Positions 1,135 through 50,826 of a DNA stretch of 64,000 bases are shown here, piece by piece. Made by a program: the position numbers and the translations under genes. Source of the DNA: a virus. The DNA lies in IMG/VR virus record IMGVR_UViG_3300027800_000004, positions 1 through 64,000 of that record. The stretch is one strand, 5' to 3'. Within the stretch, counting starts at the first letter, position 1. Every line of letters begins with the position of its first letter. The notes under the pieces are model-generated. The model had not been told where the DNA came from. It did not search any database and saw only the letters and a program-made list of their open reading frames with translations.

Positions 1135-1584
1135 TCAATTAAAATTAAACGCCACTCCTGTCAGAAGAAAGAAATTTTTAGTAGAGATGTTGTACCCACC
1201 ACCGAAAGCAATGTATTGCCACAACTGTACGGTGCCGGCCAGAGAGATTTCTGCCGGAGACACCTCGCCTATGTCTGTGCCAAATAACACTATTGCGCTA
1301 AAGGCATAGTCCATATATGGCTCTCCGTTCTGTTCGGTAAAATGGCCTATGGTAAGACCTGTTCCCAAAGAAGATAGGGGGGTAACGAGAACCTGATCTG
1401 AGAAAGTGAACTGCATTGCTGATACCTGTACTACTGGCCGGAACAGCCATTGGACGTTTACCCCCCTATCGTTTGTTGGTATCTTATCCGGAACCCTTCC
1501 GAAGAAGTTGTTCCATTTGTCCTGGGCATTTAAGGATGTTGCAATAACTCCTAATAATGCCATAATTAGTAATGTCTTTTTCAT
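1135..1584 (-). CDS. Small secreted outer-membrane-type protein
   Basis: 149 residues with a clear Sec signal peptide (MKKTLLIMALLGVIATSLNA, cleavage before Gln21, a frequent Bacteroidota arrangement). The mature part has alternating hydrophobic/polar strands, several Gly/aromatic turns, and ends in FNFN, all in keeping with a small outer-membrane beta-barrel. Its start overlaps the stop of the giant downstream-polyvalent reading frame by 4 nt, so it is the last gene of the late operon. A role in superinfection exclusion or envelope modification is a guess. I do not recognise the family. Confidence 0.65.
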   Translation of the reverse strand: MKKTLLIMALLGVIATSLNAQDKWNNFFGRVPDKIPTNDRGVNVQWLFRPVVQVSAMQFTFSDQVLVTPLSSLGTGLTIGHFTEQNGEPYMDYAFSAIVLFGTDIGEVSPAEISLAGTVQLWQYIAFGGGYNISTKNFFLLTGVAFNFN

Positions 1585-7330: not shown

Positions 7331-10300
7331 TTACTTAATAGCGAGAAGCAACTGATTGACGATATTGAATACCTTGCTGAAATATGGATAGTTATCAACA
7401 CCCATATTAACAGTTCCCTTCTTAATCCCTGCACTTTCTCCCTCTTTCTTTACCTCTTTATCCAGGGCCTCGATAACCGGCTTGATATGCTGTCTCTGGA
7501 AGTCAATTATTTCGTGCATGATCTTGGTGACAGCATCATAGTCCTTGCGTAACTGCTGCCCAAGTTCCGGATTATAGAACATACTACCCTCTTCATCATT
7601 GCCAAGAACGTACCAGTTCCTTTCAATGTTCTCCATGTTGAGTTGTCTCCGGGTGAACTGTATGCTCTCTGCAAGCTGTGAGGATATTATTTCCTGTAAT
7701 GCAGGACCACCATTGACGATGGCGGCTACCAGGTCATCATAGGACATATTTGCCTCTCTCAGCACCGTTTTCATGGCATAGATTGGTAGGTTGTCCGGCC
7801 TTTTAGCGAATGTGGCAGACAAATAGACCCCACCCCTCGTTCTCTGTATAAACTCCTTAAAAAAGTTACCCGTGTTACTGGATCCGGAGGCATCATGGCT
7901 CTCATCCATGATGAAAATTGCGTTTGGAGCAATATTCAAGAAGAAATCCCTTCTTTTTAGGGCATTACCTTTATCAGTATTGAACTGCGAATATGTTGCC
8001 AGGACAAAATTAGTACCCTTCGGAAGCTCTCCTGTCTTTAACATTTGTTCATACTGCTTCTCACTCCAGATAAACATGGCCTCTTCCGTATTAGGCTTGT
8101 AGATCTTAGTCTTTTCTCCCTGATCTTCTTTGTTAAGTATGAATGGTATGTAATTCGGCTTGCCTATGTCGAACAGGTCCCGGTACATATCGGTGAATAG
8201 ATTTGCTGTCTTGGTTATGAACACCGGTATGTATCCATTCTCAATAGCATACGATATCACCCCTGCAGCGATCCTTCCTTTTCCTACACCTGTCTGATCT
8301 CCGATAATCGTAGCATCTCCGTTCTCTATATTGAATACGGACATACCAATACCATCAATCTGTGATCCATAAAGCGCGGCAGACAGGTCATCAAGACTGT
8401 TGTACTTGAGTTTTTCCATGACATACTGATCTATGTCACCGACCTCTGCCCTTAGTTGCATAAGTGCATCCTCAAGTTGTTGCGCCATTGCACCAGGCAC
8501 CATCTCGTTTCCGGAAGGTGTTCTGCTCAGTGGCACATACGGAATGACTGCATCTGTCTCCCGGTCTATCAGACCGAGGGATCTTCCAGTACGCTCAATA
8601 GGTTCTCTAGGCTGCTCTGGTGGTAGATCTCCTGGACTTGCCGGAGGTTGAACTGCTCCACGATCTCCGGTTTTCCGCTTAAACGGGTTCTCAAGGCCCC
8701 GAAGTGGCTTGTCATCTGTGGGCAACGGAGTATCTGGTCCACCTGGGCGGTCAGGCTCGTTTCCGGGACTTGGTTTATGTACATCTCCAGAAGTCGGCTT
8801 CTTTGTTTCTCCGGGACGTTCGCTAGGAGGGCCAGGTACCTCTCCCGGAGGGGGCTGTACAGGTCCGATATCTTCTGTATTCTTTGGGATGGATGAATTT
8901 CTACCACGAATAATCGTACTGTCTCTTCCGATGGCATCCATCTTGGATTGTAAAATAGCTTTTTCATGTGGGTCTGTCGTTATCTTGATTATTCTGTCAT
9001 AGAGTTCTGTCCATCCGGGGACAGGATTATCTCTCTCTGTTCTCTGTGGAGCAATACCTTCAAATGCCGGCTTACGGCCATTGATGAGGATCAGTCTGGT
9101 GGGATAAGAGGTTCCCATCTTTGAATAAAGCTCACCAGGGATCTGTATTACATCCTCTACATAGAAATTTGAATACAGCCAGTTAAAGAATTTGAGATCT
9201 CCCCCGGTCATGTATCCGTCTTTGTCGTATTTCGTATGATCACCTATAATGACTGATGCCTTGCCTTCGTCTGCAAGGTTCTCAAGTGCCATAGCTACCA
9301 TGTAGTGCGTACCTGAGAGTGTATAAGAATATTTCCCTGCTCCCTTGAAATCCCCTGTAACCTGTAATCCAAACGGAGGATTGGTATTGATGGCATAGAA
9401 TAGCGGATGGTCAAACTTATCCTTCAGGCTTTCCCTGGCATCGTAGTTACTCGCGCGATATCCCTGCGATACAAGACTACTGAACCGGTTGGGATCAATC
9501 TCATTGATGCGGACATTCTTCTGGTTAGCAAAAATCACCAATGCTCCGTGACCACCGGTGGGATCCAGTATTGACTGCACTACATCGGAGTTGGTATAAA
9601 CTCCCATCATATACCCAAGGGGTACGGGTGTGCTGTATTGCTGTAATTCCTTGACCTGGCTCGTTGCAAACCTGTCCTGTAATGGAAATGTATCATAGAG
9701 GGCAACAATGCGGTAGAAACGATCTGAGATCGTCAGAGAGGCATTTTGGGCAATACGTTTTGCCAACATCGTCAGAGCCATTTCTGCCTGATCCCTTATC
9801 GTGGTCAGATCCGTGATGCCAAACTCATCTTTGGCCATCCTCTTCAAATCTCCGGCATTGCCAATAGATACCCCATTATTGAGATAATATGCGATCCTGT
9901 TGGTGAAGAGATATTTTTTGAGATCTATCAGTTTCTTTTCTCCCTCTTTGATAGCCTCTTCAAGCTGAGTTATCCTTCTGACAATCTTCTCAGGTTTGGT
10001 CCTTTTGTCTCCTTTGGCTATTCTCCGGGCCTCTTGACCTATAAATAACAGAAGATCTCTTGGTGCTATTCCCCCAAAGTGATGCTGTAAGAAACGATAT
10101 GAGCCAATAGCATCCCAATCCATTCCTATATGAGCCATCCATCTCTCTACCTCATTCTCCAGGCGAAGAACATCGGCAAGTAATTCGGCCGGCACGTTTG
10201 CCATAATGTACGGCTCCAATGAATCACCAGTGCCATCTGCCTTATCCAACGTAGCAAAGATTGATCCTGATGTTATTCTGACCGGATCCCTTGGAACGAA

Positions 10301-13300
10301 CTGAATCTCTCCATACTTAATCTGTAATTCAAGTTTTCGTTCTTTTACGCATTCTTTAAGGTTCTCCAGATCGTTCTCCAGTGTCAGTCCTCTTGATGGT
10401 TTTACCGTTGCCCTGCTCCGGATCCATGTAGCCATATCCGGATCGCCAAGTTTCTCAAACTCCTGGGCAACCTCATCATAAGCCTTTGTTCTCTTCGGAT
10501 CGTTATACGGCGGTTCCGGGATTACTTCCTTAACACGGCCTTCGGCAATTCCCTTGCGTAAAGTATCCAGCTTTGCATAGGTGAGGGGATTTCCCTCAAT
10601 AGCCACCACCTTCATCGGGAAGGTTTGCTCTTCTGCAAACAACCCGTCATGGGCCTTGACTTTCTGAAAATACTCTGTCTCTCCCCACTCTTCAACGTGG
10701 CGTATCTCTATGGTCATGCCATTGGGTACACGAAACTTCTTCCCTACCACATCGGAGAAATCATCCTCTGGTTCTTCCGGTGCGTTCATCTTGGCCATGA
10801 GATTGTCCAGATCTTCTTTTCCAAAACTTCTGACCTTCTGGAATTGTTTGGACATTTTCTCCATAACATCTTCCGGCGCATCCATAGATACTGCACCATA
10901 TCCCTGTTTGAGAAATGGCATGAGTTTATCCAGGACCGGTGCATCTACTTGAGGAATGATCTGTTCAAGCATATCCTCAAAGTCAGTTATCCCGGCATTG
11001 GCAAACTTGCGAACCATGTCCGAAGCGATATTCCGAAGTTGTGTCTTAAGCGCATCGTCCTCACCGCCACTCTCCATGCCAAACCCTGCTGCCGGGGGAC
11101 CTCCCAAAAGATTAAGGAGATCCTTCATGTCCTTGAGATCCTTGGCTACATCTACTTGCTTTTTGACTGGCTTGGTTGGCCCTTTAACTGGTTTACTCGG
11201 GCCTTTAGTCTCAGGAACCGGAGGGCCTCCTGTTGGAGCTTCAGGTTCTTCTCCACCATAGAGTCTGGCTTCTTCTGCTGCCCAGTCTGCTTCAAGTCGT
11301 TTTCTGGCTTCATGTTCTTCTGCTATTGCTTGTTTGTATAACTGAATTTCTTTCTCGTCAATGATACCGGCCTTGGCCGCCTCATTTACTGTCTCCAATG
11401 TCAGACCACCATACCTCTCAACGAATGTAGTGAATTTGGCATCCTTAATAAGATTGGTGTGTTCTTCGATTGAGACAATTATTTTCGTATCACCATCTCC
11501 TTTAAACACCATCTCACCCCTCTGATACATCTGTTTCAGAGCATCCATGAGATACTGGCTGTGCTGTGTGCCTTTTCCGGATAATAAGATCTTTGCCGCT
11601 TTTGCAAGACCTACCTCTCCCATAGAAGGTGCATCAATACCATATAAGAACTCCCATGACTTTGCCATAAATCCGACAAAATCCTTCAGTCCGGGTTCTT
11701 CTATGGATGTCAGGGTGTCGTATTCTGGCTTTACGCTTATTCTCCTGGCCTTTGAGCCACCTTCATTAAAGACAGTGATCTTCCTTCCCTCAACCTTGAA
11801 CGTGTAGCCTATCTCATTTGACAGGCTATTTATGCGCGGTATTAGCTTGGACTTGGCACTCTTGCTATTGGTGGAGTTATATTCCTCCATAAGAGAGACA
11901 AGTTCATTATTGGCATAGATCCTTCTTGCCTCTTTGTTCTTTGCCTTTTCTGCAAGATCTTTCTCGGTTGTTTTCTTCTCCTCTTCTGTCTCCGGTTTAA
12001 TTCCACCGGCTTTTTCCCATAACGCAAATTGGCGATCCCATTCCTGTACTGTAATAGGAAATTCCTCGCCTGTTTCCATGTTTCTTACTATCCAACCCTT
12101 ATCAGTTGTATCTAGTTCAGAGTTCTCAAAATCAATGGTGCGGAATTGCTGTTCTTTCTTTGCTCTGAATAAGATATCTCCATTTGGCTTTTCTTCTAGA
12201 TCAAAGAACTTCTTTAGTTCCTCAAATATTTTTGGTACTTCTACCTGGTTATTCCGTGACTCCTTCTTTGAAATCAATCCGGCAACATCCTTGGGCAGAT
12301 TGCCCATTGCGTATTTAATGATGTTAGTGGCCAACCCCTGCTTTTGCTCGTCTGTAACGGTGCTTAATAATCCCATTGAAAGGAACTTCTCTCCGTCAAT
12401 ATCAATGACCGGCTTCTTTAGTGTCAGTGATGATGCCTCTGTCTCACCATCTGGAGTATATACGATGTACTTATAATCGTTCTTACGATCAAGTATGTTT
12501 GGCTTATACTGGTCCGGGAACTGTGGCTCTGCGGCAGGCGTTACTTTTGGTGCCTCTTTTTCTGGAGTAATTGTAACGGGTTCCTCTCCCTTGCCAATAA
12601 ACTCATCAACACTCTTATCGAAGATCTCACCGATGCTCAGATCCTTTATCTCCTTTGTAGGATTGTTAATCTTTCCCCAAGCAAGTTCAACGATGTCGTT
12701 TATATCTTCTTGACTGAAATCACCCTTGGCCTTAATACGGCTCTCGATCTCCGGCATTGATTCAAGGATATAATCCTGCAGCTCTTTCTCAAACTTTAAA
12801 CCTAACTGCTTTTTGGCATATTCGATCTTAGCAATCTCATCCCGGTATGCAGCTCTCTCTTTTCTGCCCTCTCTTCCCTGGAACTTCTCTGCCTGTTTCT
12901 CTATATCTGCGATCTGCTTATCATAAGCCTCTGTTTGCTTTGTAAGCGTTTCCTGTGCCTTGACAAGATTACCCAGAAAATCCTTTGCCGGTGTCTCCAT
13001 GATCTTGCCCGGCTCTCCGTAAGTATATTCCTTTTTGAGTTTTTCCGGAAGTTCAACCGGCTCCATGCCGGCTTTCTTCATCTCGGCTCCCTCTGCCTCC
13101 AGTTGCTTTAGCCTCTTCTCTATTTTCGTAGGCTCTGGTGTCTTGACATAGAACGCACCTGTTGACTTTCCAAGTCCTTTTGCGGGTGGAGGCCCTGCCG
13201 GTAATGCCTGGAAATCCTTGCCGTAATAACCTTTCTCTGCAAGGACCTCATTGAATACCTGTAATCTCTCGTAATGGTTCTCAAGTCTTAATGCAAGTTC

Positions 13301-16090
13301 AAGTCTGCTGCCAACTTTATAGTAAATGTCAGCCTTGACATCTTCGGCCAGAGCCTTTACACTCTTGCCTGTCTCGATATCTATCAGATCAAATCCAACT
13401 ACTGTGCCTCTCTTGGTCTTTAATACTTCATTCACTTCATAATACACATCATCCATCTGAACAACATCCATCGGTTTAACATCTTTTAACGATGATGTTT
13501 TCAGAGTAACAAATCCGTCAAATGCCGGATCGTTATTCATGTTCTCCAGCACCTTGATGGCATCCCTGTTGGCATCAACGGCCATTCTGAGAACGCTTAC
13601 CGGCATTTTTTTGGCATATTCCTCTGTCTCTGCAATCCTTTGCATCTTCAGATCTTTACCAGTGATAGGTTCCTTGGTCATATCCAGCCACCGGTAGAGT
13701 TCTTTTGCAGTATCAGTATATCCTTTTTCGTCTGCAGTTCTGGCAGCATTGAATACCTTGGCTCTCATTTTAGGATTGAAATATCCTGTCCAAGATGCGC
13801 CTCCGCTTTTACCCCACTTGGCTCCAAGGGGTGCTGTCATGGCTTTTTGGCTCCCGGTAGTCAAGGCTCCCATGCCTCCGAAGAAGATACCATTGACAGT
13901 AAGTTCCATCAGGACCCTTTTCGTTACCTCATCGAGATTAGGATAGAGATTATTCATCTCTTCTTTGATCGTGCTATCAGAGAGTAGCGCATTTGCCATC
14001 GCTGATGTAGCTAATCCGGCCTCCATACCCACCGTTGCACCTACGGCACTCTTATATGCCATATCAATGAACGGTTGCAGGATATTGCCCCATTTGCCCC
14101 TTAATTTGACTTCTGGCAGAAATAGATGTGCGGTATTGATACCGGTCATAAAGCCTGGTGTCATACCCATCATCCCTGTGAAGGCTGCTTCATCTATGGC
14201 AGATGAGATAACTAAACCCTTAAGTTTACTCACACTGGTTGGTTTGACCTCGCTGATCACCTTCCATCCGGTAGGCACCGGGTCTGCAAACCTCAATGTT
14301 CTGGTAAGAGGCTTACCGGCCTCTTTCAATACAGGGTTCTCAATTATCTTCGTGCCATACCTTAATTTACTGATTAATGGTGCAGACTTCAATACGTTTG
14401 TGGCACCACCTATGAGCATAAGCATCGGAAGGTCTGCCATAAGACTTCCGGAAAACGACATGGTTTGCTCAAGGAACCCCGGAGTTATCTGGTCAATCTC
14501 TTCGTCTGTCCAGCCTATACCTTCCCTCATGCCAAGTTCACCCATCTTCTGAAGGATAGTCTGCTCCGTTACCCTGCCTGATATTGGTGTTTCTTGTTTG
14601 GATATCCCCTTAAGGATTGCATCGCCCATGACCTCAAACTGATATTTGGCATCCTTCTTAATGTCCATAGGGCCTTCGTTGGCATAGTACATCCTAGATG
14701 CAGCTTCAAACATAGCTGTCTTTTCGTACTTCATCTTTTGGGCGTTCTCCATTGCCGGAGAGATTGGGGCCGGCCTAAACCCTACTGTCCGGGCAGCCTG
14801 TTGTGGATCAGCATAGGGTGTTGATGCTTCTTTATACTGTTTTTCAAGCCTTGCATATTCCTCATCCCAAAACTTCTTCTCAACAAACGCATCATTGACG
14901 ATCTGGTGCAGCCTTTCCTTATCTGAAGGATTACTCGTTATTGATCCAGTAATGTTTTTATCAGTATCAATACTCTCATTAAAATCATTGATTTCTTTTT
15001 CAAGGTCTTTCTGCACCTTGATAAGATCAATCTGGGCCTTTTTCCACTCATCTACCTCCGGACTGGTGGCGATTAATGCTCCCTTCAAAGAGTCCTGTGC
15101 GGCCTTCCTCAGTTCCTCGACTTCAGCATAAGCCTCCATCAACTGATCCTGTTTGAGATCGAGTTGTTCTTTCTTCTTTGATAATGGATGGTCCGGTGAT
15201 GATGCTATTGCACCATTGCGGAGTTGCTCCATGTACTTATTGATAAGAGCCAACTGATCTGCATCGGCCTCTGTCTCCGGCTGTAATTTCCTCTGGCCGG
15301 TAACGGGGTCAATGAACGTGCCTGGTTTGGCATCTTTGACATAAGGTTGTGCTTCCTGTTGTACTGCCTGTTCGAGTTTTATGGGATCCCATTTCTCCTT
15401 TAACTTATCAACCATGCTTCTGTTGGCAGTATAATGAAGCATGTCCAGTAACCGGTTACGGTCCTCTTTCGGAATACCCTGCTCCTTAAGGTATTTCTCA
15501 ACCTTCTTCTTTTCTCCAAACCCTTCGGTCAGGACATATTGTTCGGGATTGGTCTTGATATAGTTATAGTCCGGATGCTCAAGCAATTTGGGGATTACTC
15601 CGGCTATCTTTTCTTCATTTGCGCGGACTGCCTGAAATGCTTCCGCGGACTTATTGAGATAAGTATCACTGATTACCGGCTTGATTGCGTCTTGCCGGGC
15701 ATAGAATTGATCGTAGATTTGCGATTTGTCCACAAAATCTGGATAATCCAGTTCCGGAACGACTGGCTCTTGTTCTTTTTTTTTTGACAGACTGAGTTTA
15801 GCGATATTACTATCAATGAACTTTTGCCTTAATTCCTTGATGGTGTTTACATCTTTAAGGCCCATCTCATTATAATAGGGTGTTGAGATACTGTCAAAAA
15901 ACTTCCCAAGAGTATTGCGCTGACTTACTGAGTCCTGGCGATATAACCGTTCATCAGCAAAGAACTGGTCCTTATCTCTCTGGTAAAGGTCTTTTTTTAC
16001 CTTAAGAACATCAGGAGTATAATCTTGTGTCGGCTGATCAACCGGAAGCTCCGGTGCCGCCACTTCTTCTTTTTTGCGCTTTTTATCCAT
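7331..16090 (-). CDS. Giant polyvalent protein, N-terminal part: N6-methyltransferase-like and Strawberry-notch helicase lobe 1
   Basis: 2919 residues. The first 1,900 are mostly helical, charged and low in recognisable domains, with hydrophobic stretches near residues 560-730. A GNAT-like segment (LLSTVTDEQKQGLATNII) lies near residue 1,240, only a weak resemblance. An N6-adenine methyltransferase-like domain has DPTGGHGA near 2173 and the catalytic NPPF near 2237. A Pro/Gly-rich linker follows, then a Strawberry-notch AAA lobe with Walker A-like DQTGVGKGR near 2600 and DESH near 2729. The frame stops with TAA at 7331-7333 exactly between the two helicase lobes; the continuation is one frame away. 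Likely role: protection, modification and remodelling of incoming phage DNA. Confidence 0.82.
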   Translation of the reverse strand: MDKKRKKEEVAAPELPVDQPTQDYTPDVLKVKKDLYQRDKDQFFADERLYRQDSVSQRNTLGKFFDSISTPYYNEMGLKDVNTIKELRQKFIDSNIAKLSLSKKKEQEPVVPELDYPDFVDKSQIYDQFYARQDAIKPVISDTYLNKSAEAFQAVRANEEKIAGVIPKLLEHPDYNYIKTNPEQYVLTEGFGEKKKVEKYLKEQGIPKEDRNRLLDMLHYTANRSMVDKLKEKWDPIKLEQAVQQEAQPYVKDAKPGTFIDPVTGQRKLQPETEADADQLALINKYMEQLRNGAIASSPDHPLSKKKEQLDLKQDQLMEAYAEVEELRKAAQDSLKGALIATSPEVDEWKKAQIDLIKVQKDLEKEINDFNESIDTDKNITGSITSNPSDKERLHQIVNDAFVEKKFWDEEYARLEKQYKEASTPYADPQQAARTVGFRPAPISPAMENAQKMKYEKTAMFEAASRMYYANEGPMDIKKDAKYQFEVMGDAILKGISKQETPISGRVTEQTILQKMGELGMREGIGWTDEEIDQITPGFLEQTMSFSGSLMADLPMLMLIGGATNVLKSAPLISKLRYGTKIIENPVLKEAGKPLTRTLRFADPVPTGWKVISEVKPTSVSKLKGLVISSAIDEAAFTGMMGMTPGFMTGINTAHLFLPEVKLRGKWGNILQPFIDMAYKSAVGATVGMEAGLATSAMANALLSDSTIKEEMNNLYPNLDEVTKRVLMELTVNGIFFGGMGALTTGSQKAMTAPLGAKWGKSGGASWTGYFNPKMRAKVFNAARTADEKGYTDTAKELYRWLDMTKEPITGKDLKMQRIAETEEYAKKMPVSVLRMAVDANRDAIKVLENMNNDPAFDGFVTLKTSSLKDVKPMDVVQMDDVYYEVNEVLKTKRGTVVGFDLIDIETGKSVKALAEDVKADIYYKVGSRLELALRLENHYERLQVFNEVLAEKGYYGKDFQALPAGPPPAKGLGKSTGAFYVKTPEPTKIEKRLKQLEAEGAEMKKAGMEPVELPEKLKKEYTYGEPGKIMETPAKDFLGNLVKAQETLTKQTEAYDKQIADIEKQAEKFQGREGRKERAAYRDEIAKIEYAKKQLGLKFEKELQDYILESMPEIESRIKAKGDFSQEDINDIVELAWGKINNPTKEIKDLSIGEIFDKSVDEFIGKGEEPVTITPEKEAPKVTPAAEPQFPDQYKPNILDRKNDYKYIVYTPDGETEASSLTLKKPVIDIDGEKFLSMGLLSTVTDEQKQGLATNIIKYAMGNLPKDVAGLISKKESRNNQVEVPKIFEELKKFFDLEEKPNGDILFRAKKEQQFRTIDFENSELDTTDKGWIVRNMETGEEFPITVQEWDRQFALWEKAGGIKPETEEEKKTTEKDLAEKAKNKEARRIYANNELVSLMEEYNSTNSKSAKSKLIPRINSLSNEIGYTFKVEGRKITVFNEGGSKARRISVKPEYDTLTSIEEPGLKDFVGFMAKSWEFLYGIDAPSMGEVGLAKAAKILLSGKGTQHSQYLMDALKQMYQRGEMVFKGDGDTKIIVSIEEHTNLIKDAKFTTFVERYGGLTLETVNEAAKAGIIDEKEIQLYKQAIAEEHEARKRLEADWAAEEARLYGGEEPEAPTGGPPVPETKGPSKPVKGPTKPVKKQVDVAKDLKDMKDLLNLLGGPPAAGFGMESGGEDDALKTQLRNIASDMVRKFANAGITDFEDMLEQIIPQVDAPVLDKLMPFLKQGYGAVSMDAPEDVMEKMSKQFQKVRSFGKEDLDNLMAKMNAPEEPEDDFSDVVGKKFRVPNGMTIEIRHVEEWGETEYFQKVKAHDGLFAEEQTFPMKVVAIEGNPLTYAKLDTLRKGIAEGRVKEVIPEPPYNDPKRTKAYDEVAQEFEKLGDPDMATWIRSRATVKPSRGLTLENDLENLKECVKERKLELQIKYGEIQFVPRDPVRITSGSIFATLDKADGTGDSLEPYIMANVPAELLADVLRLENEVERWMAHIGMDWDAIGSYRFLQHHFGGIAPRDLLLFIGQEARRIAKGDKRTKPEKIVRRITQLEEAIKEGEKKLIDLKKYLFTNRIAYYLNNGVSIGNAGDLKRMAKDEFGITDLTTIRDQAEMALTMLAKRIAQNASLTISDRFYRIVALYDTFPLQDRFATSQVKELQQYSTPVPLGYMMGVYTNSDVVQSILDPTGGHGALVIFANQKNVRINEIDPNRFSSLVSQGYRASNYDARESLKDKFDHPLFYAINTNPPFGLQVTGDFKGAGKYSYTLSGTHYMVAMALENLADEGKASVIIGDHTKYDKDGYMTGGDLKFFNWLYSNFYVEDVIQIPGELYSKMGTSYPTRLILINGRKPAFEGIAPQRTERDNPVPGWTELYDRIIKITTDPHEKAILQSKMDAIGRDSTIIRGRNSSIPKNTEDIGPVQPPPGEVPGPPSERPGETKKPTSGDVHKPSPGNEPDRPGGPDTPLPTDDKPLRGLENPFKRKTGDRGAVQPPASPGDLPPEQPREPIERTGRSLGLIDRETDAVIPYVPLSRTPSGNEMVPGAMAQQLEDALMQLRAEVGDIDQYVMEKLKYNSLDDLSAALYGSQIDGIGMSVFNIENGDATIIGDQTGVGKGRIAAGVISYAIENGYIPVFITKTANLFTDMYRDLFDIGKPNYIPFILNKEDQGEKTKIYKPNTEEAMFIWSEKQYEQMLKTGELPKGTNFVLATYSQFNTDKGNALKRRDFFLNIAPNAIFIMDESHDASGSSNTGNFFKEFIQRTRGGVYLSATFAKRPDNLPIYAMKTVLREANMSYDDLVAAIVNGGPALQEIISSQLAESIQFTRRQLNMENIERNWYVLGNDEEGSMFYNPELGQQLRKDYDAVTKIMHEIIDFQRQHIKPVIEALDKEVKKEGESAGIKKGTVNMGVDNYPYFSKVFNIVNQLLLAIK

Positions 16091-29369: not shown

Positions 29370-30071
29370 TTAAATACCTTGTTGAATTTTCGTATTAGCG
29401 TACTGGACGATATCTGCCTCACGGAGATTAACGCCCATGTATTCAAGTATCATCCTTACAAGGTCCATGTGTTCGTCCTGGGGCCACTCAAACTCTGTTG
29501 ACGATGCGGCATTATAGGTGATGTAACCCTCAAACTGATTATATTCAAAGATAGGTTCTACCGGCCACCGCCAGTATGCAAAGTCAACGGCTGTAATTGT
29601 TATCGGATAGATCTGTATGCCGGTGCTACGCATGATACCTATCGGATACATTGTGGTAGGTGCTTTTGTATAATTGCCTCTCCGCGCTGTTCCTTCTGTC
29701 TCCCGAAGGATCTCCACCTGTCTAGGTACAGGGATGGACACACCGTCAATGGTAGTGTCCCTATTATACGTTATCTGGTCCCTGTGAGCATAGTCAGACG
29801 GATATGGGAGTAACCCTGCCACGCATGCTGTATTTGACAAGAACATCTTGAATGCCTTCATGTCATCAGCGTTCTTCAGAGTTATTTCTACAAATTCTCT
29901 GGGAATCGGTCTGCCAGGTTGGTATTCTGCCGGAAGTCCAAACTTCTTCTTATACTTGTCAATGTTGACAACCTTTATCAACTGTCTGAACCGATCAGGA
30001 CCCCAGATGTTTCCTGCATAGTCCTTATTCAGAATTAACTCTACCAACTCATACATCTCGAATAAGGTCAT
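29370..30071 (-). CDS. Ring-like/neck protein of crAss-like type
   Basis: 233 residues. The start (MTLFEMYELVELILNKDYAG, then RFRQLIKVVNIDKYKKKFGL) and PAEYQPGRPIPRE, a VDFAYWRWPVEPIF strand, and the end STEFEWPQDEHMDLVRMILE are features I associate with a conserved structural protein of Bacteroidota podoviruses that lies next to the ring proteins. No signal peptide. It is the first of a run of four to five neck genes. Assigned to the neck or tail by synteny; the exact ring is not resolved. Confidence 0.6.
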   Translation of the reverse strand: MTLFEMYELVELILNKDYAGNIWGPDRFRQLIKVVNIDKYKKKFGLPAEYQPGRPIPREFVEITLKNADDMKAFKMFLSNTACVAGLLPYPSDYAHRDQITYNRDTTIDGVSIPVPRQVEILRETEGTARRGNYTKAPTTMYPIGIMRSTGIQIYPITITAVDFAYWRWPVEPIFEYNQFEGYITYNAASSTEFEWPQDEHMDLVRMILEYMGVNLREADIVQYANTKIQQGI

Positions 30072-30076
30072 CGTCT

Positions 30077-31201
30077 TTAGTATTGAATGAATATTTCACC
30101 TTCCTTGAAAAACATCTTACCCGTCTTTAGCGGTATGTTTACCGTATCTCCTGAGATAACGTACCCTTTCTCATAAAAGATCGTCATTCCCCCTTCATAC
30201 ACCCTCGCCCCCTGTTGCCAATACATACCATTCTGTCTTACCAAAGGTACATCTTTCCCAACCTCCCAATGAGCATTAGCAGCAATACCCATATTAAACT
30301 CAGTCCAGGTTCCCCATTCCACTCTCCATGATGGTACCAAACTTTCTGTATCAATAAAGTATGGATCTCTTAACTGAGAATGAGTATCATATCCGTGTTC
30401 TCTCCACTGGGTTAATGTATGTCTCACTCCGGCAATAGTAAAGATCGGTTCTCCTGCCTCACACCAATAAACATTATAGTCACATTCAAATCCCTGTAAA
30501 CAATCTTCTTCCATTACGTTGATATTAATAATCTGTCTTTTGGTATAGAAGATATTGTTCTTGATCTTTGTGTTATGTGCCCTGCCGAATGCGTCAGGAT
30601 GACCGGAGGATGTGTCGGTGTTCATGTAAACATCAATCAGACCGCGCCAGGTTCCGATGCCTGGACCAACATATACCGAATCTTCGCTATAAAAGGTATT
30701 ATTATAAATCCTTACTCCGTTCATTCCTTTAACTACAACGCCAACGGCAGGAGGATTACGAATGATATTGTAAGCCACTACCCCGGAAGTATCAGTCAAT
30801 CCATTTGACTTACGAACAATACCCATTGGAACGTAATTGAGATAATTATACATGATCCTTGCGTCCGTATTATATCCTGTAAATATCCCATGAGTAATTG
30901 TATTGGCATTCTGATCTCCGGTCCAGTTGAACTTGTTACCAATTATCTGTTCACCACGAAGATTATTGGTATATCCTGACGGCACTTCATATCCTGCTTC
31001 CAGCATATACCCGTTTTTGTTACAGGTCTGAACATAGTTGTTCTTAAAGGTGAAAGTCGTAGGAACGGTTTTTGGAAAGACTACCCCATATCCTACATCG
31101 CAGTTGATGGTATCAATCTTTGTCTGTCCTTCAATGGTCAAAACAACTTGCGCCGATAAAATCGGCGGCAATAATAACATTATGAATATCAGCCACTTCA
31201 T
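30077..31201 (-). CDS. Secreted beta-helix protein, paralogue of the tailspike N-terminal domain
   Basis: 374 residues. A Sec signal peptide (MKWLIFIMLLLPPILSA, cut before QVVL) precedes a parallel beta-helix closely similar to residues 1-310 of the tailspike at 21573-24362: shared segments include ITHGIFTGYN, VPMGIVRKSNG, TDTSGVVAYNI, VVKGMNG, GFECDYN and HGYDTHS. A C-terminal beta tail (VNIPLKTGKMFFKEGEIFIQ) replaces the lyase module. It overlaps the lipoprotein gene by 4 nt. A phage beta-helix exported to the periplasm or surface is odd; it may bind the same glycan as the tailspike, for example as a decoy or superinfection factor. Catalytic residues were not identified. Confidence 0.68.
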   Translation of the reverse strand: MKWLIFIMLLLPPILSAQVVLTIEGQTKIDTINCDVGYGVVFPKTVPTTFTFKNNYVQTCNKNGYMLEAGYEVPSGYTNNLRGEQIIGNKFNWTGDQNANTITHGIFTGYNTDARIMYNYLNYVPMGIVRKSNGLTDTSGVVAYNIIRNPPAVGVVVKGMNGVRIYNNTFYSEDSVYVGPGIGTWRGLIDVYMNTDTSSGHPDAFGRAHNTKIKNNIFYTKRQIININVMEEDCLQGFECDYNVYWCEAGEPIFTIAGVRHTLTQWREHGYDTHSQLRDPYFIDTESLVPSWRVEWGTWTEFNMGIAANAHWEVGKDVPLVRQNGMYWQQGARVYEGGMTIFYEKGYVISGDTVNIPLKTGKMFFKEGEIFIQY

Positions 31202-31770
31202 TTTATTGTGAATGTATCATTATCGCTAACCCATGTAATCACTCTTCCACCATATCCGGTAGTGGCATGTGCAGGAGAGGTCCATGTCAGCATCATCTTT
31301 TCATTATATTGATTATCTGATCTCAGACTGTCCGGTACTGAACTCCAATCATAATTGGCATCAAAAAATGCCTCTTGCTCCGCTACCATTTTGTCTGCCT
31401 GATCGTACATATTATTTATCTTGATCCAATTATCAGCAAGTAAATCTCCGGTAGGAGTAATTACGGGTGGTTGTGAATCTTTTGCTGTTACCGTAAAACT
31501 AACTTCACTAAAATTATTAAATGCGTCCGTCGCTCTAATCACTACCGTAACCACAGGATTTGTAATGCTCAAAATAGTGCCAGGAGCCGGTGTCTGAACC
31601 ACGCTCTTAATGCTACAATTATCGGTCACAATAACCATTGGTACATAGTTAGGTAGTGGAGCTTCACAATTTGCCCCAACCATAACATACTGTGGAGGTA
31701 TCTGCGAAAGCAGACATGTACAACTGCTTGCAAGAAGCATAACCGCAAAAAGAATTGTTAGTTTTTTCAT
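31198..31770 (-). CDS. Lipoprotein with HYR-type domain
   Basis: 190 residues. The signal MKKLTILFAVMLLASSC ends in a lipobox-like ASSC, so Cys17 is the likely lipidated residue. No acidic residues follow Cys17, so the Bacteroidota surface-export signal is not visible and a periplasmic-face location is favoured. Residues 25-105 resemble a HYR/Ig-like domain: Cys-containing start, TDNCSIKSVVQTPAPGTI, then VVIRATDAFNNFSEVSFTV. The C-terminal part is helical then beta. It sits between the secreted beta-helix and the lysis cassette. Role in envelope disruption or superinfection control is speculation. Confidence 0.62.
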   Translation of the reverse strand: MKKLTILFAVMLLASSCTCLLSQIPPQYVMVGANCEAPLPNYVPMVIVTDNCSIKSVVQTPAPGTILSITNPVVTVVIRATDAFNNFSEVSFTVTAKDSQPPVITPTGDLLADNWIKINNMYDQADKMVAEQEAFFDANYDWSSVPDSLRSDNQYNEKMMLTWTSPAHATTGYGGRVITWVSDNDTFTIK

Positions 31771-31774
31771 TATC

Positions 31775-32221
31775 TTATCGTATTATTAGTTTGAATTTTG
31801 GTGGAAGAATTGTTCTTAATAAATCCATTGCCTTGGTGCTATCCTGTACGTCTATGTTTCCGTCATTGTTTATGTCAAAAAACTTTAATCCTACAAGGAT
31901 ACATCCAAGGGTATCAACTTTTCTCAGGTCTTTCATAATGGCTCTTTCCAGTAGCATTTTTTCAGATGCGTAGTTGCCAATATGAATGATTATATTAGAC
32001 CGGTTTGGTACATCCTTTACAAGAAAACATATTCCAAATTTCTGAGAATGTATGCGTTCGCACTCGTATTCACCTGGGGGGATGCAGGAAATATCTTTGT
32101 GATTTTCAAGGTACGGCAGTTCCAGGCTCTTGACCTGGGCAACTACCGTATCCTCGTCAATCACCAAGAAACAGCCTTGTGTCTGCTTCTCAAGATAAGA
32201 TCTGCCAATTACTGCGAACAT
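31775..32221 (-). CDS. DUF5675-family protein with inserted calcium-binding motif
   Basis: 148 residues. The core matches the DUF5675 pattern: VIDEDTVVAQVKSLELPYLE, then CIPPGEYECER, FLVKDVPNRSNIIIHIGN and GCILVGL. This family is found in phage lysis regions and mobile elements of Bacteroidota. Near the C terminus, DINNDGNIDVQDSTKAMDLL is inserted or appended, an EF-hand/dockerin-like calcium loop (Asp-x-Asn-x-Asp-x-x-x-Asp). The gene is coupled to the holin gene by a TAATG overlap, so it is part of the lysis cassette. The enzymatic activity of DUF5675 is not known. Confidence 0.75.
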   Translation of the reverse strand: MFAVIGRSYLEKQTQGCFLVIDEDTVVAQVKSLELPYLENHKDISCIPPGEYECERIHSQKFGICFLVKDVPNRSNIIIHIGNYASEKMLLERAIMKDLRKVDTLGCILVGLKFFDINNDGNIDVQDSTKAMDLLRTILPPKFKLIIR

Positions 32222-32427
32222 TATACAGGCTCGCTTTGCTTAAAGAATATCCCGATCAATGCAACAACCCCGGCAATTACCGATGAAATAAGGGGTAAGG
32301 CCTGTGAAGATTGTTCGGGTGTAACAATGCCGAAACCTACAAGAACTGCAAACACAAGTGCGATAATTGATAATACTGTCTGCATCCAAGTTGCAGACCA
32401 TTCTCTTTTTGTACTTTTTGCTTTCAT
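32221..32427 (-). CDS. Holin-like protein
   Basis: 68 residues with two predicted membrane helices, about residues 15-33 (MQTVLSIIALVFAVLVGF) and 44-62 (PLISSVIAGVVALIGIFF), joined by a short polar turn, and a Lys/Arg-rich N terminus. This is the usual outline of a small two-helix phage holin. It is coupled to the DUF5675 gene (TAATG) and follows the metacaspase-like gene by 10 nt. It would form the pores that start lysis. Confidence 0.75.
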   Translation of the reverse strand: MKAKSTKREWSATWMQTVLSIIALVFAVLVGFGIVTPEQSSQALPLISSVIAGVVALIGIFFKQSEPV

Positions 32428-32437
32428 AATTTAACTT

Positions 32438-33193
32438 TTAAGTGAATACTAATCTATTTTGAAGATCAATGTTTCCTTCTATTGTAGGATGTTGATCGAA
32501 GTTTTTATTTGGAAGGTAAAGACACACCTGTTCAAACCATTTGCGATAAGTAAAGTTCCTGTCCAGACAGTTCCAGAAATAGAATGAAAACGCACCGTTA
32601 AAAACTCCGTTAATTTCCGCATCGGCAGAAGTTTCATTCTCTGCACAGGCAGAAAAAATAATAACGTCACCCATAGGATGTATTGCCTTTTTTATCCTGT
32701 TGTATGAAGGCAAACATTTTTTTGGAGGCATAAAACGAGCCTTGCTATTCAATGCTCTTGGCTTATTCCCTGAGAAGCAACTGTCGAGAATTAATACGAA
32801 AGTAACACCTTGGGGAATGTCTTTTAGCAATTCTTCAGTTTCATCGTCAATGAAGTTCCCGTCATAAAGATAAAGTGTTTCGTCCACGCCGTCAGGCTCA
32901 TCCCCGTGAACATCCTTCACATAACTTCCGTGACCGCTGTAAGCGACTATTATTATGTCACCAGAAACAGCGTTTTGTTTTGCATAAAGCACTTGATCTC
33001 TGAGTGTGCGCCTTGTTACATCACTATCCTTAAACGGTCTTATCTGAAAGTCGGGTATTTGACTTGCTGCCAGCAGCATATCATTATTACATCCGTTCAG
33101 ATCGTTTTTTGAGCCTTTGTAGTCGTTAATTGATAGCAATATTGCGACCTTATTTGAGTGTTCCCACGCTATCGGTTTTCTTTTGAAGCACAT
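32438..33193 (-). CDS. Metacaspase-like protease (peptidase C14 fold) in lysis cassette
   Basis: 251 residues. The catalytic dyad of the caspase fold is present: His88 in IIVAYSGHGSY and Cys139 in FVLILDSCFSG. The N terminus carries ILLSINDYKGSKNDLNGCNN, the usual first strand and helix of metacaspases, and VIIFSACAENETSADAE the later core strand. No signal peptide or extra domain is seen. The gene is within the lysis cassette, coupled by TAATG to the coiled-coil membrane protein and 10 nt from the holin. Expected to cleave after Arg/Lys or Asp in a host or phage protein at lysis or abortive death; the substrate is unknown. Confidence 0.85.
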   Translation of the reverse strand: MCFKRKPIAWEHSNKVAILLSINDYKGSKNDLNGCNNDMLLAASQIPDFQIRPFKDSDVTRRTLRDQVLYAKQNAVSGDIIIVAYSGHGSYVKDVHGDEPDGVDETLYLYDGNFIDDETEELLKDIPQGVTFVLILDSCFSGNKPRALNSKARFMPPKKCLPSYNRIKKAIHPMGDVIIFSACAENETSADAEINGVFNGAFSFYFWNCLDRNFTYRKWFEQVCLYLPNKNFDQHPTIEGNIDLQNRLVFT

Positions 33194-33600
33194 TATTTTA
33201 ACGCATTAACAATATTCCATAACTCGCGCAGTCCAAAATAGTCCAGTAACCCTACGATAATCGCCACCGATCCAATAAATATCAACAATAACGCCCACCA
33301 ATTCTTTTTCATCCATTGGTAAGGTTTGTGGCTTCCGGTTTTAACGTGTTCTTTAAACTCTAGAACAACTTCTGCCCTCTTGTTGCTTTCTCTCTGTAAC
33401 TCCGCGACAGTGCCGTTCAGTTCTTTAAGATGTTCCTTTATGTCTTTAAGATCTTTGTTTGTTATCCATGCAGTTGCCGCAAGATCTTTATGCACACCCT
33501 TTATGCCGTCTGTTATAGCATTACGGATATCATTATGAGCATTTAGATTGTTTAATTGAATGTCCTCTACGGCTTTAAATATAAGAGTTAGATCTGCCAT
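33193..33600 (-). CDS. Coiled-coil protein with C-terminal membrane helix (XhlA-like)
   Basis: 135 residues. Residues 5-85 are amphipathic and mostly helical with likely coiled coil (LKDIKEHLKELNGTVAELQR), followed by a single membrane helix at about 101-120 (WWALLLIFIGSVAIIVGLLD). This layout is like the hemolysin XhlA family, which assists holins in several phages. It is coupled to the metacaspase-like gene, so it may bring that enzyme to the membrane or be part of the holin complex. Function is inferred from layout and location. Confidence 0.6.
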   Translation of the reverse strand: MADLTLIFKAVEDIQLNNLNAHNDIRNAITDGIKGVHKDLAATAWITNKDLKDIKEHLKELNGTVAELQRESNKRAEVVLEFKEHVKTGSHKPYQWMKKNWWALLLIFIGSVAIIVGLLDYFGLRELWNIVNALK

Positions 33601-47769: not shown

Positions 47770-48363
47770 CTAGTTATGGACAAAAAGTGGTTTCTCTATA
47801 TGGATAATCTTCAATGCCATTTTTCTGCATAATGCACCACATTCTACGGCAAATGTACCATCTGCCGAGTGGTTTGTGTTTTTAAAGCCAATCTTCTTTG
47901 CAATATCCAATCTGGTTATAAAGGATCCCATGTCAATGTAGTCTATTCTTAACTGTGACTGAAGGACTCCGTACTGAAGATATGAATGAAGGGTGTCGCA
48001 AAAGACAAGTCCTACACGGGTAGTACAGAGCCTCAGCATCATCTCTACAAATTTCGGAACATAATAGTTGTCATCATTGGTTATGAGAAGATAGTCTGAG
48101 TGGTTGAATGGCAGTTTTTTTAACTGCAAGTCTCTGTTAGGATGGCCAAAGCTGCCATTTACAGATGGCGTTTCTATAAAAGTTATCCTTTTATCCTGTT
48201 CATATTCGCGCATGTATATTATCATTTCATCCGGTGCCGGTCCGTCATGAACGACATACAATCTCCATCGCGGATCTGTCTGAAGCTGCAAACTGGTTAT
48301 GAGAATACGCAAAGGCAATGTCCTTTGATAAACCGTGCAGATTATATGTAAAATGCCGGTCAT
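47770..48363 (-). CDS. Family 2-type glycosyltransferase
   Basis: 197 residues, the size of a bare GT-A domain. ILHIICTVYQRTLPLRILIT opens the fold, Asp40 is in YVVHDGP and the metal-binding NDDN motif is at residues 96-99. A second half carries a strand and helix (IDYIDMGSFITRLDIAKKIG) but is short, so only the catalytic core is present. No membrane segment. It begins a cassette of sugar-modifying genes and overlaps the next gene by 4 nt. Sugar and acceptor unknown. Confidence 0.72.
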   Translation of the reverse strand: MTGILHIICTVYQRTLPLRILITSLQLQTDPRWRLYVVHDGPAPDEMIIYMREYEQDKRITFIETPSVNGSFGHPNRDLQLKKLPFNHSDYLLITNDDNYYVPKFVEMMLRLCTTRVGLVFCDTLHSYLQYGVLQSQLRIDYIDMGSFITRLDIAKKIGFKNTNHSADGTFAVECGALCRKMALKIIHIEKPLFVHN

Positions 48364-49073
48364 CTTTTTCGGTAGTTATTCTCTGGATAAACGAGGTTAT
48401 AATGCCCTCTTCCGGATATCAACCTCTCTTTGCTGTTGTATCCGGAGTTGTGTATTTCAAAGGCTTTTGCCTCCTTGTTTGAGCCGATCCAGAACTCTCT
48501 TTTAAAACGCCAGGGATCATCGAGATAGGAATGGTCAAGTGTGTTGATATAATCTGTTCTTGCCCACCAAAAGTTTCCGGAGAAATGCGGCCAGTATCCC
48601 AGGGGAGTATCTTTATTCCACATCACTCCGCAGCAATCATATCCTTTCTCAAGAATCTTTATGCTGTCACACCATTTTTCTATGGCAAAATATTCCATAT
48701 ATCTTCTCCATGATTCTGTTGGTGCGGTGAGTTGAGTAATGCCTTTAGTGTGAAAATAGCAAACATAGTCTCCGGGGTTTTTTGCCGAATAGTCTCTTAT
48801 AAACTTTAAAGTATCGGACTCATCTTTGTTATCGTCATAGACCATGATGGTGATCTTAGAACTATCCATCGCGCTATCAATCTTTCCACAGAACCACCTT
48901 AACCACTCCAGATGCTTGGAAGACTTTTCTGTTTTCGGATTAATTACCCCAATATAAAATTTGTCACATGCTTCTAACAGGCCCGAATTGATTACGTTCT
49001 CCATCTGGTCGGTAATCATGTCAACACAATGATCTATCAGATACACATGATAGGCAGCAACGATCTTTTTCAT
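48360..49073 (-). CDS. Glycosyltransferase-like protein (paralogue of 50272-50826)
   Basis: 237 residues. The sequence of elements is a Rossmann-like start (KIVAAYHVYLIDHCVDMITD), YVCYFHTKGITQ, FSGNFWWARTDYINTL and FKREFWIGS. The same order is present in the 184-residue gene at 50272-50826, so both stem from one family. The FHTKG and SGNFWW patterns occur in transferase-like proteins of bacterial surface polysaccharide clusters. Catalysis is inferred only. Overlaps neighbours by 4 nt on both sides. Confidence 0.6.
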   Translation of the reverse strand: MKKIVAAYHVYLIDHCVDMITDQMENVINSGLLEACDKFYIGVINPKTEKSSKHLEWLRWFCGKIDSAMDSSKITIMVYDDNKDESDTLKFIRDYSAKNPGDYVCYFHTKGITQLTAPTESWRRYMEYFAIEKWCDSIKILEKGYDCCGVMWNKDTPLGYWPHFSGNFWWARTDYINTLDHSYLDDPWRFKREFWIGSNKEAKAFEIHNSGYNSKERLISGRGHYNLVYPENNYRKR

Positions 49074-50275
49074 AATATCTTGATATCGGGAAACATTACA
49101 ATGAATTTTCCATCATACTGACCTTTTAAAGACTCGATGATGTAATCACGAAAGTTATGAGCCAGGATAAGGATGTAGTCAATATGGTTGTCTTTTAAAA
49201 CATCCCGGCTGACTACCTCTATGCCGGTGCCTGGCACGAACTTATTTTGTTTGAAAGGGGTATCATCAATGATGAACTTCATAATGGAATAGTCAATTCC
49301 GCAAGTGTTTAGAAACACACAACCCTTTGCGGCCGCACCAAACCCTGCGATGACCTTTCCCTGAGAGATCAGGTCCGCAATGAACTTCTGAAACTCCTCA
49401 ATCTTCTGGTGTGTTCGTTTGCCCCATTTTATGCAATACTCTTCCGTAAGTGTCTTTTCAAGATTGAGAAAAGATGCTATGGTGGTATCCGGTGTTCGTG
49501 ATGATGTTTTCTTGGCACTCAAGACCCGGAGGGTGCCGGCGTGCATGTCGTGGTAAGAAACATTGATGACCTTTAACCCTTCCTGGTCAAGCAGATCTAT
49601 GATGTTTTGCAGACAGTAGTAGTACACATGTTCGTGATAGATCTGGTCGTAGTTGTCGTTGGCAAGGGTTGTGAGGATATATGGAAACTCCAAGCACCAT
49701 ATTCCATCGTTTGTGAGTGACTGCCGGATCCCGCGGACGAAAGACCTGATAGGTTCGGTATGCTGAAATACGTTTGTTGAGGTGATAAGTTTTGCCTTAT
49801 ATGGCAATCTGATCTTATCGTCAAAATACTCGCAGATATATTCGATGCTGATCTCCTTATTGATGTCAATGAAGCTGCGGCTGCAATCAATGTTGATGTA
49901 TGTTGGGGACCGGTTCTCTTTCTTAAACTCCAAAAGAAGGCTTCCATCATTGCCGCCAATATCCACAACAATATCATCCTTCTGCAATGTGATAAACCAC
50001 GACAGGTAATCATACATGTTGGCGCAATGGTCCAGGTATGGCTTGTTGACTCCGGAACGGTAAAGATAGTTCAGAAAGATGCCGTCCCGGTCAACACACT
50101 CGGTCAGGCTGGTCAACTTACTTTCCGGGAAGAATTGAATAGCCAGGGGAAATTTTTCGCAGTCAAGAGATTCTTGCATTGTCAGGCAAAGGTTATTTAC
50201 CAATGGCACTTTGCCCAGGTTAAGGTATTCTACGGACTCCTTACTTCCACTAATTGGACATTGGGTTATTTTCAT
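49070..50275 (-). CDS. Sugar C-methyltransferase (SAM-dependent)
   Basis: About 401 residues from the ATG at 50275, which overlaps the upstream stop as ATGA; the more distal ATG at 50293 would give a 22-nt overlap. The N-terminal zinc-binding region of the family (CPISGSKE, YLNLGKVPLVN) has lost part of its Cys set. The SAM-binding motif is DIGGNDGS near residues 105-112, then YHEHVYYYCLQNIIDLLDQE and GTLRVLSAKK, and a GFGAAAKG loop in the C-terminal domain. This order is that of TylC3/C-3-type sugar methyltransferases, which make branched deoxysugars. Works with the neighbouring transferases on a glycan. Confidence 0.75.
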   Translation of the reverse strand: MKITQCPISGSKESVEYLNLGKVPLVNNLCLTMQESLDCEKFPLAIQFFPESKLTSLTECVDRDGIFLNYLYRSGVNKPYLDHCANMYDYLSWFITLQKDDIVVDIGGNDGSLLLEFKKENRSPTYINIDCSRSFIDINKEISIEYICEYFDDKIRLPYKAKLITSTNVFQHTEPIRSFVRGIRQSLTNDGIWCLEFPYILTTLANDNYDQIYHEHVYYYCLQNIIDLLDQEGLKVINVSYHDMHAGTLRVLSAKKTSSRTPDTTIASFLNLEKTLTEEYCIKWGKRTHQKIEEFQKFIADLISQGKVIAGFGAAAKGCVFLNTCGIDYSIMKFIIDDTPFKQNKFVPGTGIEVVSRDVLKDNHIDYILILAHNFRDYIIESLKGQYDGKFIVMFPDIKIL

Positions 50276-50826
50276 GGTTTTGAGTATATCCAATATTCTG
50301 CATTAAAGCGATCTGTCTGATCTATTTCGGAAAGTGGTTTTAGCCGTGATAATCTTTTACGATCAAACCAAAAGTAATTTCCGGAAAATCTTTTGGGTAT
50401 AGACAGGTAGTTTACCGAAGAGATATCATATCCTGTTTCAATAAGATCCTTATGATGCTGCCACTGACTGAGCATTATGAAATTAAGAAACATCCTCTCT
50501 TTCGTCTGCATGGTATCTTTTGGCCTGGTTACACCTTTGAGATGAAAATAGAAACCAACATAATTACTGGGGTCCTGCTCTATAAGTTTCAATGTGGCAA
50601 ACTCATATTCAAGAGGATTTGTTGTTTGATAGCATAATGCAAACTTCATTTTTGGATATAATAATTGCATTAATTTATCAATATCTTGTTGTGATCCAAT
50701 ACATCCCATCTTAATCTCGGCACAACTATCGTAGAGATGGGATGCAACCAATATATTCAACTGTTCATTTACGATAGCCTCCCAGTTGTTGATGAGGTAC
50801 AGATGCCAATAGCCTTTTATAATCAT
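50272..50826 (-). CDS. Glycosyltransferase-like protein, second paralogue
   Basis: 184 residues. The layout matches the 237-residue gene: start with KGYWHLYLINNWEAIVNEQL, then YFHLKGVTRP, FSGNYFWFDRKRLSRLKPL and RFNAEYWI. The pair differs in length mainly in the N-terminal and middle part. No signal peptide or membrane segment. Overlaps its neighbours by 4 nt on both sides, so it is cotranscribed with the methyltransferase and the conserved 212-residue gene. Sugar and acceptor unknown. Confidence 0.58.
   Translation of the reverse strand: MIIKGYWHLYLINNWEAIVNEQLNILVASHLYDSCAEIKMGCIGSQQDIDKLMQLLYPKMKFALCYQTTNPLEYEFATLKLIEQDPSNYVGFYFHLKGVTRPKDTMQTKERMFLNFIMLSQWQHHKDLIETGYDISSVNYLSIPKRFSGNYFWFDRKRLSRLKPLSEIDQTDRFNAEYWIYSKP

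Follow-up and report, generated by a model that had tools for sequence, protein, structure and literature searches.

A caspase-fold protease kept beside holin-like genes in phages, with a naturally rearranged subclade, suggests a possible protein-cutting step in lysis

What is a caspase doing among the lysis-like genes of a phage? The question is raised by a gene in the window, by which we mean the whole 64 kb stretch analysed here, out of a 76,344-base Caudoviricetes virus record. Terminase, portal and virion genes of the window match PHROG families. With the terminases of Cellulophaga, Flavobacterium and Maribacter phages its own shares 27% identity (27.5% for Cellulophaga phi46:3), and with an environmental one 32%; phi46:3 and the other terminase relatives we take to be Pachyviridae. 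These comparisons suggest that the window virus is distantly related to flavobacterial phages and that its host is probably a member of the Bacteroidota. Elsewhere in the window, Glycosyltransferase 2 and C-methyltransferase genes lie beside the terminase (47770-50293, minus strand), and two giant minus-strand ORFs (1581-7310 and 7331-16090) encode 1909 and 2919 aa. A single 5078-aa ORF in the stretch L257 of a relative has the 1909-aa ORF as its best match (78% over 1912 aa).

The gene itself (32438..33193, minus strand) starts with ATG and encodes 251 aa with the N-terminus MCFKRK. PF00656 (Peptidase_C14) matches the protein at 2.5e-24 with 86.7 bits (cut-off 21.4) over profile positions 2-225 of 233, and also exceeds the cut-off for two diverged relatives, the caspase of L132 (70.0 bits) and the permuted caspase of G002 described below (28.0 bits). 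The catalytic His88 of the SGHG stretch in SGHGSY (codon 32930..32932, minus strand) and Cys139 of DSCFSG (codon 32777..32779, minus strand) occupy invariant columns of a 41-row alignment, and both are retained in all 25 phage sequences of the alignment listing. An AF2 model built from this alignment (pLDDT 85.9, pTM 0.86) retrieved 3bij in Foldseek at 5e-15 and matched metacaspases across residues 11-251, with VIA Z scores of 24.7 to AtMCA9 and 24.2 to GSU0716. The window ORF is an intact family C14 caspase with the dyad H88/C139; both the dyad and the caspase fold expected in a preliminary description of this DNA are borne out. A p20-only orthocaspase is excluded, as the profile match reaches position 225 of 233 and strands and helices lie behind the Cys in the model. 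No signal peptide was seen in the protein. With yeast Mca1 it has in common an acidic GDE-DG-D loop and a DD motif, which leaves a Ca2+ switch as an option; calcium-independent members of the metacaspase family are reported in the excerpted text of PMC5756287.

On the minus strand, the neighbouring genes encode, in order, a coiled-coil-like membrane protein (135 aa), the caspase, a two-TM protein (68 aa), a DUF5675 protein (148 aa), and the proteins Lp1 (190 aa) and Lp2 (374 aa). The first of these (33193..33600, minus strand), coiled-coil-like by eye, carries one C-terminal TM segment (99-125), and its stop overlaps the caspase start by one base (TAATG), which is the coupling reported earlier. 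A resemblance to XhlA-type coiled-coil lysis proteins was not borne out in Pfam, where the XhlA profile gave no match for it at E 0.1; L097 encodes a 38.7% relative. Downstream, the previously noted gap of 10 nt lies between the caspase stop and the ATG that begins the 68-aa gene (32221..32427, minus strand). Weak matches to four PHROG holin families (2.8e-4 to 0.0065), together with the two TM segments, faintly suggest a holin, and we refer to this protein as holin-like; it represents the first of two such families linked to the caspase clade described below. The DUF5675 gene (31775..32221, minus strand), already recognized in the preliminary description, has a firm Pfam match (1e-19). Its product is a candidate peptidoglycan enzyme and, on this predicted role, the sole candidate for peptidoglycan degradation in the window cassette; a family member at L147:9532-9972 gives a sub-threshold Tlde1 match (0.0038). 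Lp1 (31198..31770, minus strand) is a probable lipoprotein by eye (LLASSC), and a 60% relative adjoins a caspase in another phage backbone (L154/L155). Lp2 (30077..31201, minus strand) has an N-terminal hydrophobic, signal-like stretch, and its relative in L132 is 82% identical to the gene preceding the L154/L155 caspase. Two other IMG/VR records bear the cassette with 100% identical proteins. The cassette sits among structural genes, a virion-protein gene (PHROG 14543, 29370-30071) following it, and this location counts against a role in lysis.

Is the caspase beside these genes by chance? Scans of viral contigs with short patterns gave at least 27 further phage caspase sequences, with copies of the window virus and the duplicate L242 not counted. 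Thirteen sequences form one clade (bootstrap 100, or 98 when the moved segment discussed below is left out), termed here the lysis clade, comprising the window, L132, L147, L245, L263, L264 and seven permuted sequences. It occurs in at least three phage backbones. A portal of PHROG 7376 and a tape measure protein are encoded in the L147 record, a PHROG 146 portal in L154 and a PHROG 38 terminase in the L155 record. Neither the records of L147, L154 and L155 nor the partial one of L132 contained a match to the window capsid protein. Cassettes were seen in the window, L132 and G002/L112, which belong to the same virus group, and also in L147/L241/L243, L154/L155/L239, L240, L245, L263 and L264. 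The gene directly after the caspase encodes a product no longer than 150 aa with at least two TM segments at 10 of 12 distinct clade loci versus none of the 15 other phage caspases (Fisher 8e-6, a value that overstates independence, since the loci share ancestry and L239 and L155 are close kin). Within two genes of the caspase such a small multi-TM gene is found at 11/12 clade loci versus 1/15 others (L248), against a background of 17 among 501 other genes at 25 loci. In L241 the holin-like gene is displaced from the caspase by a GIY-YIG/NUMOD3 endonuclease (L241:8757-9674), and in L264 a 256-aa three-TM protein comes next. On the upstream side, the overlap is one base in the window, G002, L147 and L241 and four bases in L154 and L239, with a short gap in L132; Amidase_2 directly precedes the L264 caspase and DUF5675 that of L263. 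These counts argue that the placement of the clade beside a holin-like gene is not accidental. The non-random placement among lysis genes anticipated in the preliminary description is thus found, and the search it proposed for the same cassette in other phages returned diverged members (L132, L147, L154/L155, L263 and L264 among others).

Several further features of these loci were observed. An ORF behind DUF5675 in L097 (L097:8527-9285) is a BLAST relative (46.7%) of the L241 endonuclease. In the permuted-caspase cassette, Lp1 has a sigma-70 factor gene ahead of it (L154:1406-1948, L155:5505-6077); a related pair lies elsewhere in the L147 record (L254:7874-8958). Small proteins with a signal-like N-terminus, a mostly aromatic last residue and, by eye, the look of an outer-membrane barrel recur in cassettes (L102:8684-9139, L106:6839-7375, L101:8469-9107, L263:7017-7484, L264:6769-7539); the window's copy, which ends in FNFN, lies outside the cassette (1135-1584, minus strand).

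The 15 other phage caspases lie elsewhere in varied contexts, implying that phages also use the caspase fold for something else. Caspases are known parts of defence systems, and the window caspase could likewise be a host take-over or counter-defence protease that lies beside lysis genes merely by chance. A weak PADLOC caspase match (1.1e-6) and the varied contexts of the non-clade phage caspases speak for this; we nevertheless consider it improbable, given the clade-specific placement across different backbones and the lack of a PADLOC match for the five other proteins of the window cassette.

How general is the caspase within the virus group of the window? A terminase search led to 77 loci, and 37 of their records were searched with PF00656. 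Matches were obtained in two, both copies of the window virus, and in none of the nine records longer than 60 kb; the permuted G002 caspase scored under the threshold in this search. Most relatives therefore appear to lyse without a caspase. By BLASTP, G002 has a diverged caspase at the same place as the window, and L132, reached via a ring-type protein, encodes the coiled-coil/TM protein, a caspase (47%), another holin-like gene, DUF5675, Lp1, Lp2 and the virion protein. Seven caspase-less relatives carry in the slot a one-TM gene judged coiled-coil-like by eye, behind which some encode other enzymes: GH108 and papain C1 (L106), phage lysozyme (L102) or DUF5675 (L098, L099). A cysteine-protease-like gene is present in the cassette of three caspase-less relatives. 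That of L106 (L106:7348-8130, minus strand) is a papain C1 by its PF00112 match (5.1e-14), and those at L102:7756-8481 and L101:9234-9959 (minus strand) had no Pfam match and are papain-like by eye only. This variety argues that the caspase is one option within a modular slot. The same survey bears on whether the enzyme could instead be a virion or capsid maturation protease within the structural block. Such a role would agree with the virion-protein gene that follows the cassette, with the portal gene that follows the holin-like gene in L154/L155, and with three non-clade phage caspases near the large terminase gene (L143, L145 and L146, that of L145 between the small and large subunit genes). 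We regard it as very unlikely: most structural relatives searched have no caspase, and the neighbour that the clade has kept is the holin-like gene, not capsid genes.

The kept neighbour is not one protein family. Twelve holin-like proteins, those of 11 loci and that of L154, fall into two BLAST families, of 68-80 aa and 124-132 aa, with no cross match at E 0.01; L264 lacks such a protein. A coiled-coil gene is absent directly upstream in 6 of the 11 lysis-clade loci with upstream sequence (L155, L239, L240, L245, L263, L264). Judged by these gene neighbourhoods, the constant neighbour of the clade caspase is the downstream holin-like gene rather than the coiled-coil gene. The coiled-coil membrane protein, proposed earlier as the anchor of the system, finds no support in that part, being missing directly upstream in these six loci and present in the seven caspase-less relatives. 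The same observations weigh on a timing switch, in which the caspase would cleave its own coiled-coil/TM protein or holin, removing an anti-holin or activating a pore. Such a device would fit the one-base overlap with the coiled-coil/TM gene and the constant presence downstream of a holin-like gene from one of just two families, and it would have a precedent in bacterial gasdermins, which an adjacent caspase-like protease activates (PMC9612521). The partners vary, however, the two holin-like families being without a mutual BLAST match, and the coiled-coil gene is missing directly upstream of the caspase in the six loci named and retained without a caspase in the relatives above; we judge a switch of this kind unlikely, if less so than a counter-defence role.

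A feature of the caspases themselves also marks the clade. M-(x)-C ahead of the first strand is found in 12/12 clade members with an N-terminus and in 0/14 other phage and 0/24 bacterial caspases; it lies at most two codons from the start in nine members and at an internal Met of the called ORF in L240, L263 and L264. A stricter version that requires two basic residues occurs in 8 of the 13 clade sequences and in none of the 38 other caspases. The clade-wide motif appears to mark an N-terminal function.

Taken together, the intact enzyme, the upstream coupling, the clade-specific placement, the N-terminal motif and the retained His and Cys form the basis in sequence on which we read function. 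Because a single caspase clade stays next to a holin-like gene across different backbones, we favour, with some reserve, the view that the window caspase supplies the proteolytic part of a dedicated lysis module and probably serves as an executioner once the holin has opened the membrane. The caspase would be made late, together with the holin, and, as no signal peptide was seen, would wait in the cytoplasm until the membrane opens. Once the holin breaks the inner membrane, the caspase could reach periplasmic proteins, or be switched on at that moment, and would then cut envelope-tethering or other host proteins, helping the cell to come apart. The peptidoglycan enzyme of the cassette would act alongside it, an amidase in L264 and the DUF5675 candidate elsewhere. 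We prefer a host target over a phage one because the holin-like proteins belong to two dissimilar families and the coiled-coil gene is variably adjacent; target and trigger are guesses. A loose precedent is the host membrane protease FtsH, which affects lysis by phage TP712 (PMC4749879, in excerpt).

Seven of the 13 clade members, nested within the clade with support 100, have a rearranged chain in which the beta3-His-loop-alpha3 segment, central in canonical caspases, stands at the C-terminus (L112:7485-8285, L154:3638-4459, L155:7767-8588, L239:2445-3266, L240:7959-8738, L241:7953-8738, L243:3-602). Against a profile built from canonical caspases (18 from phages and 22 from bacteria, 40 in all), these proteins match as piece A (positions ~4-74), then C (~116-266, with the Cys and the p10-like part), then B (~68-122, with the His, acidic loop and helix 3). 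In L241 the pieces cover 4-74, 116-266 and 68-121, and L243, whose N-terminus is cut off, shows two pieces only, C then B. Piece B was matched at E values of 5e-6 (L241), 3e-13 (L240), 2e-6 (G2) and 2e-13 (L243), and with 38-42 bits in L154, L155 and L239. An alignment artefact is rejected, as a single canonical profile matches the pieces in the order A, C, B, and so is an assembly artefact, the seven sequences coming from seven IMG/VR sample numbers and being 39-98% identical where compared. The order is neither that of a type III metacaspase, the p10 not being N-terminal of the p20, nor a circular permutation, A-C-B not being a cyclic shift of A-B-C.

The catalytic His and Cys are retained in 7/7 permuted sequences. 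Among 13 acidic columns, several are changed in G2 and L241 and single ones in L239, L240 and L243, the last of which also lacks two columns. The sister of the permuted clade is the canonical pair L263 and L264 (support 95; 66 without the moved segment), and since the permuted clade is nested with a canonical sister, the rearrangement probably happened once, inside the lysis-clade family. The same slot holds the canonical form in L147 and the permuted form in L241, with coiled-coil genes 84%, DUF5675 89% and other neighbours 34-96% identical, which argues that the two forms do the same job. AF2 gave the permuted protein a pLDDT of 39.5 from a three-row alignment, too shallow for judging the fold; the 50 VIA matches listed for the permuted protein are caspases, metacaspases and legumain-type proteins, mostly over residues 16-223, with the moved segment outside.

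Where else do such caspases occur? In GenBank, 1 of 50,697 phage records matched the window caspase (LR745208.1, 30.5%, unannotated), and the same record was the only match for the permuted caspase. L148, which shares its N-terminus with the LR745208.1 match, falls outside the lysis clade, so that no clade member was seen among GenBank phages. The permuted form was found in 0/395 and 0/298 genomes, overlapping samples from the phylum and the order of the genome that carries L175 (Flavisolibacter), at E 1e-15; as a positive control, the query matched 5/5 permuted phage records with one continuous match each, and the empty answer is a weak one. Within the searches made, permuted caspases were found only in phage contigs. 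No description of a phage lysis caspase was found among the matches listed in open-access papers, in keeping with the earlier remark that this is not a described lysis route. The lysis reading of the preliminary description thus stands as regards the caspase fold, the non-random placement and the lack of a described route, and is not supported as regards the coiled-coil protein as anchor.

The closest cellular counterparts are stand-alone bacterial metacaspase-like proteins of the GSU0716 type (PDB 3bij), which share family, fold, dyad, similar length and a p20 with p10-like part, and of which homologues at ~33% occur in Accumulibacter, Dechloromonas, Flavisolibacter and others; in contrast to the phage clade, they are cellular, keep the canonical order and carry M-(x)-C in 0/24. 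Type I/II metacaspases (yeast Mca1, T. brucei MCA2, AtMCA4/9) have a fold like that of the window caspase (Z 22.7-24.7 for AtMCA4/9) but are eukaryotic. Type III metacaspases of secondary algae, like the permuted subclade, are a natural rearrangement of the caspase chain, with an N-terminal p10-like domain according to the text seen of PMC5756287, whereas the permuted phage caspases retain the p10 after the Cys, and the displacement is confined to the p20 segment that bears the His. Segment order is also altered in a circularly permuted caspase-2, man-made with the small subunit ahead of the large one (PMC7760212, in excerpt); the phage rearrangement, by contrast, is natural and A-C-B. The bacterial gasdermin system resembles the window cassette in that a caspase gene adjoins a gene for a pore-type membrane protein, but it serves host defence (PMC9612521); no gasdermin was seen in the window cassette, and none of the five neighbouring proteins had a PADLOC match. 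Small TM genes beside a lysin, here a candidate one, are also a feature of the holin-endolysin cassettes of flavobacterial phages, the Pachyviridae phage Gundel and others; the lysins named in the consulted part of PMC8776804 are amidase, peptidase, muramidase or GH19, with no caspase among them.

Phage lysis is usually described in terms of membrane, wall and outer-membrane steps. A caspase in lysis-like genes suggests that phages may also lyse their hosts with the help of a protein-cutting step, for which we found no description. That phages have evolved a caspase-executed route, including a still-active, naturally shuffled caspase, and with it a fold topology and a class of lysis effector that are both new, is a broader proposal that we put forward tentatively, as a serious possibility somewhat short of probable. 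If it is true, lysis would gain a proteolytic step performed by an enzyme of the cell-death protease family and would be connected with pyroptosis through a common caspase logic, and the shuffled subclade, which has an unshuffled sister occupying the same gene slot, would be a rare natural test of how far the caspase fold tolerates non-circular rearrangement.
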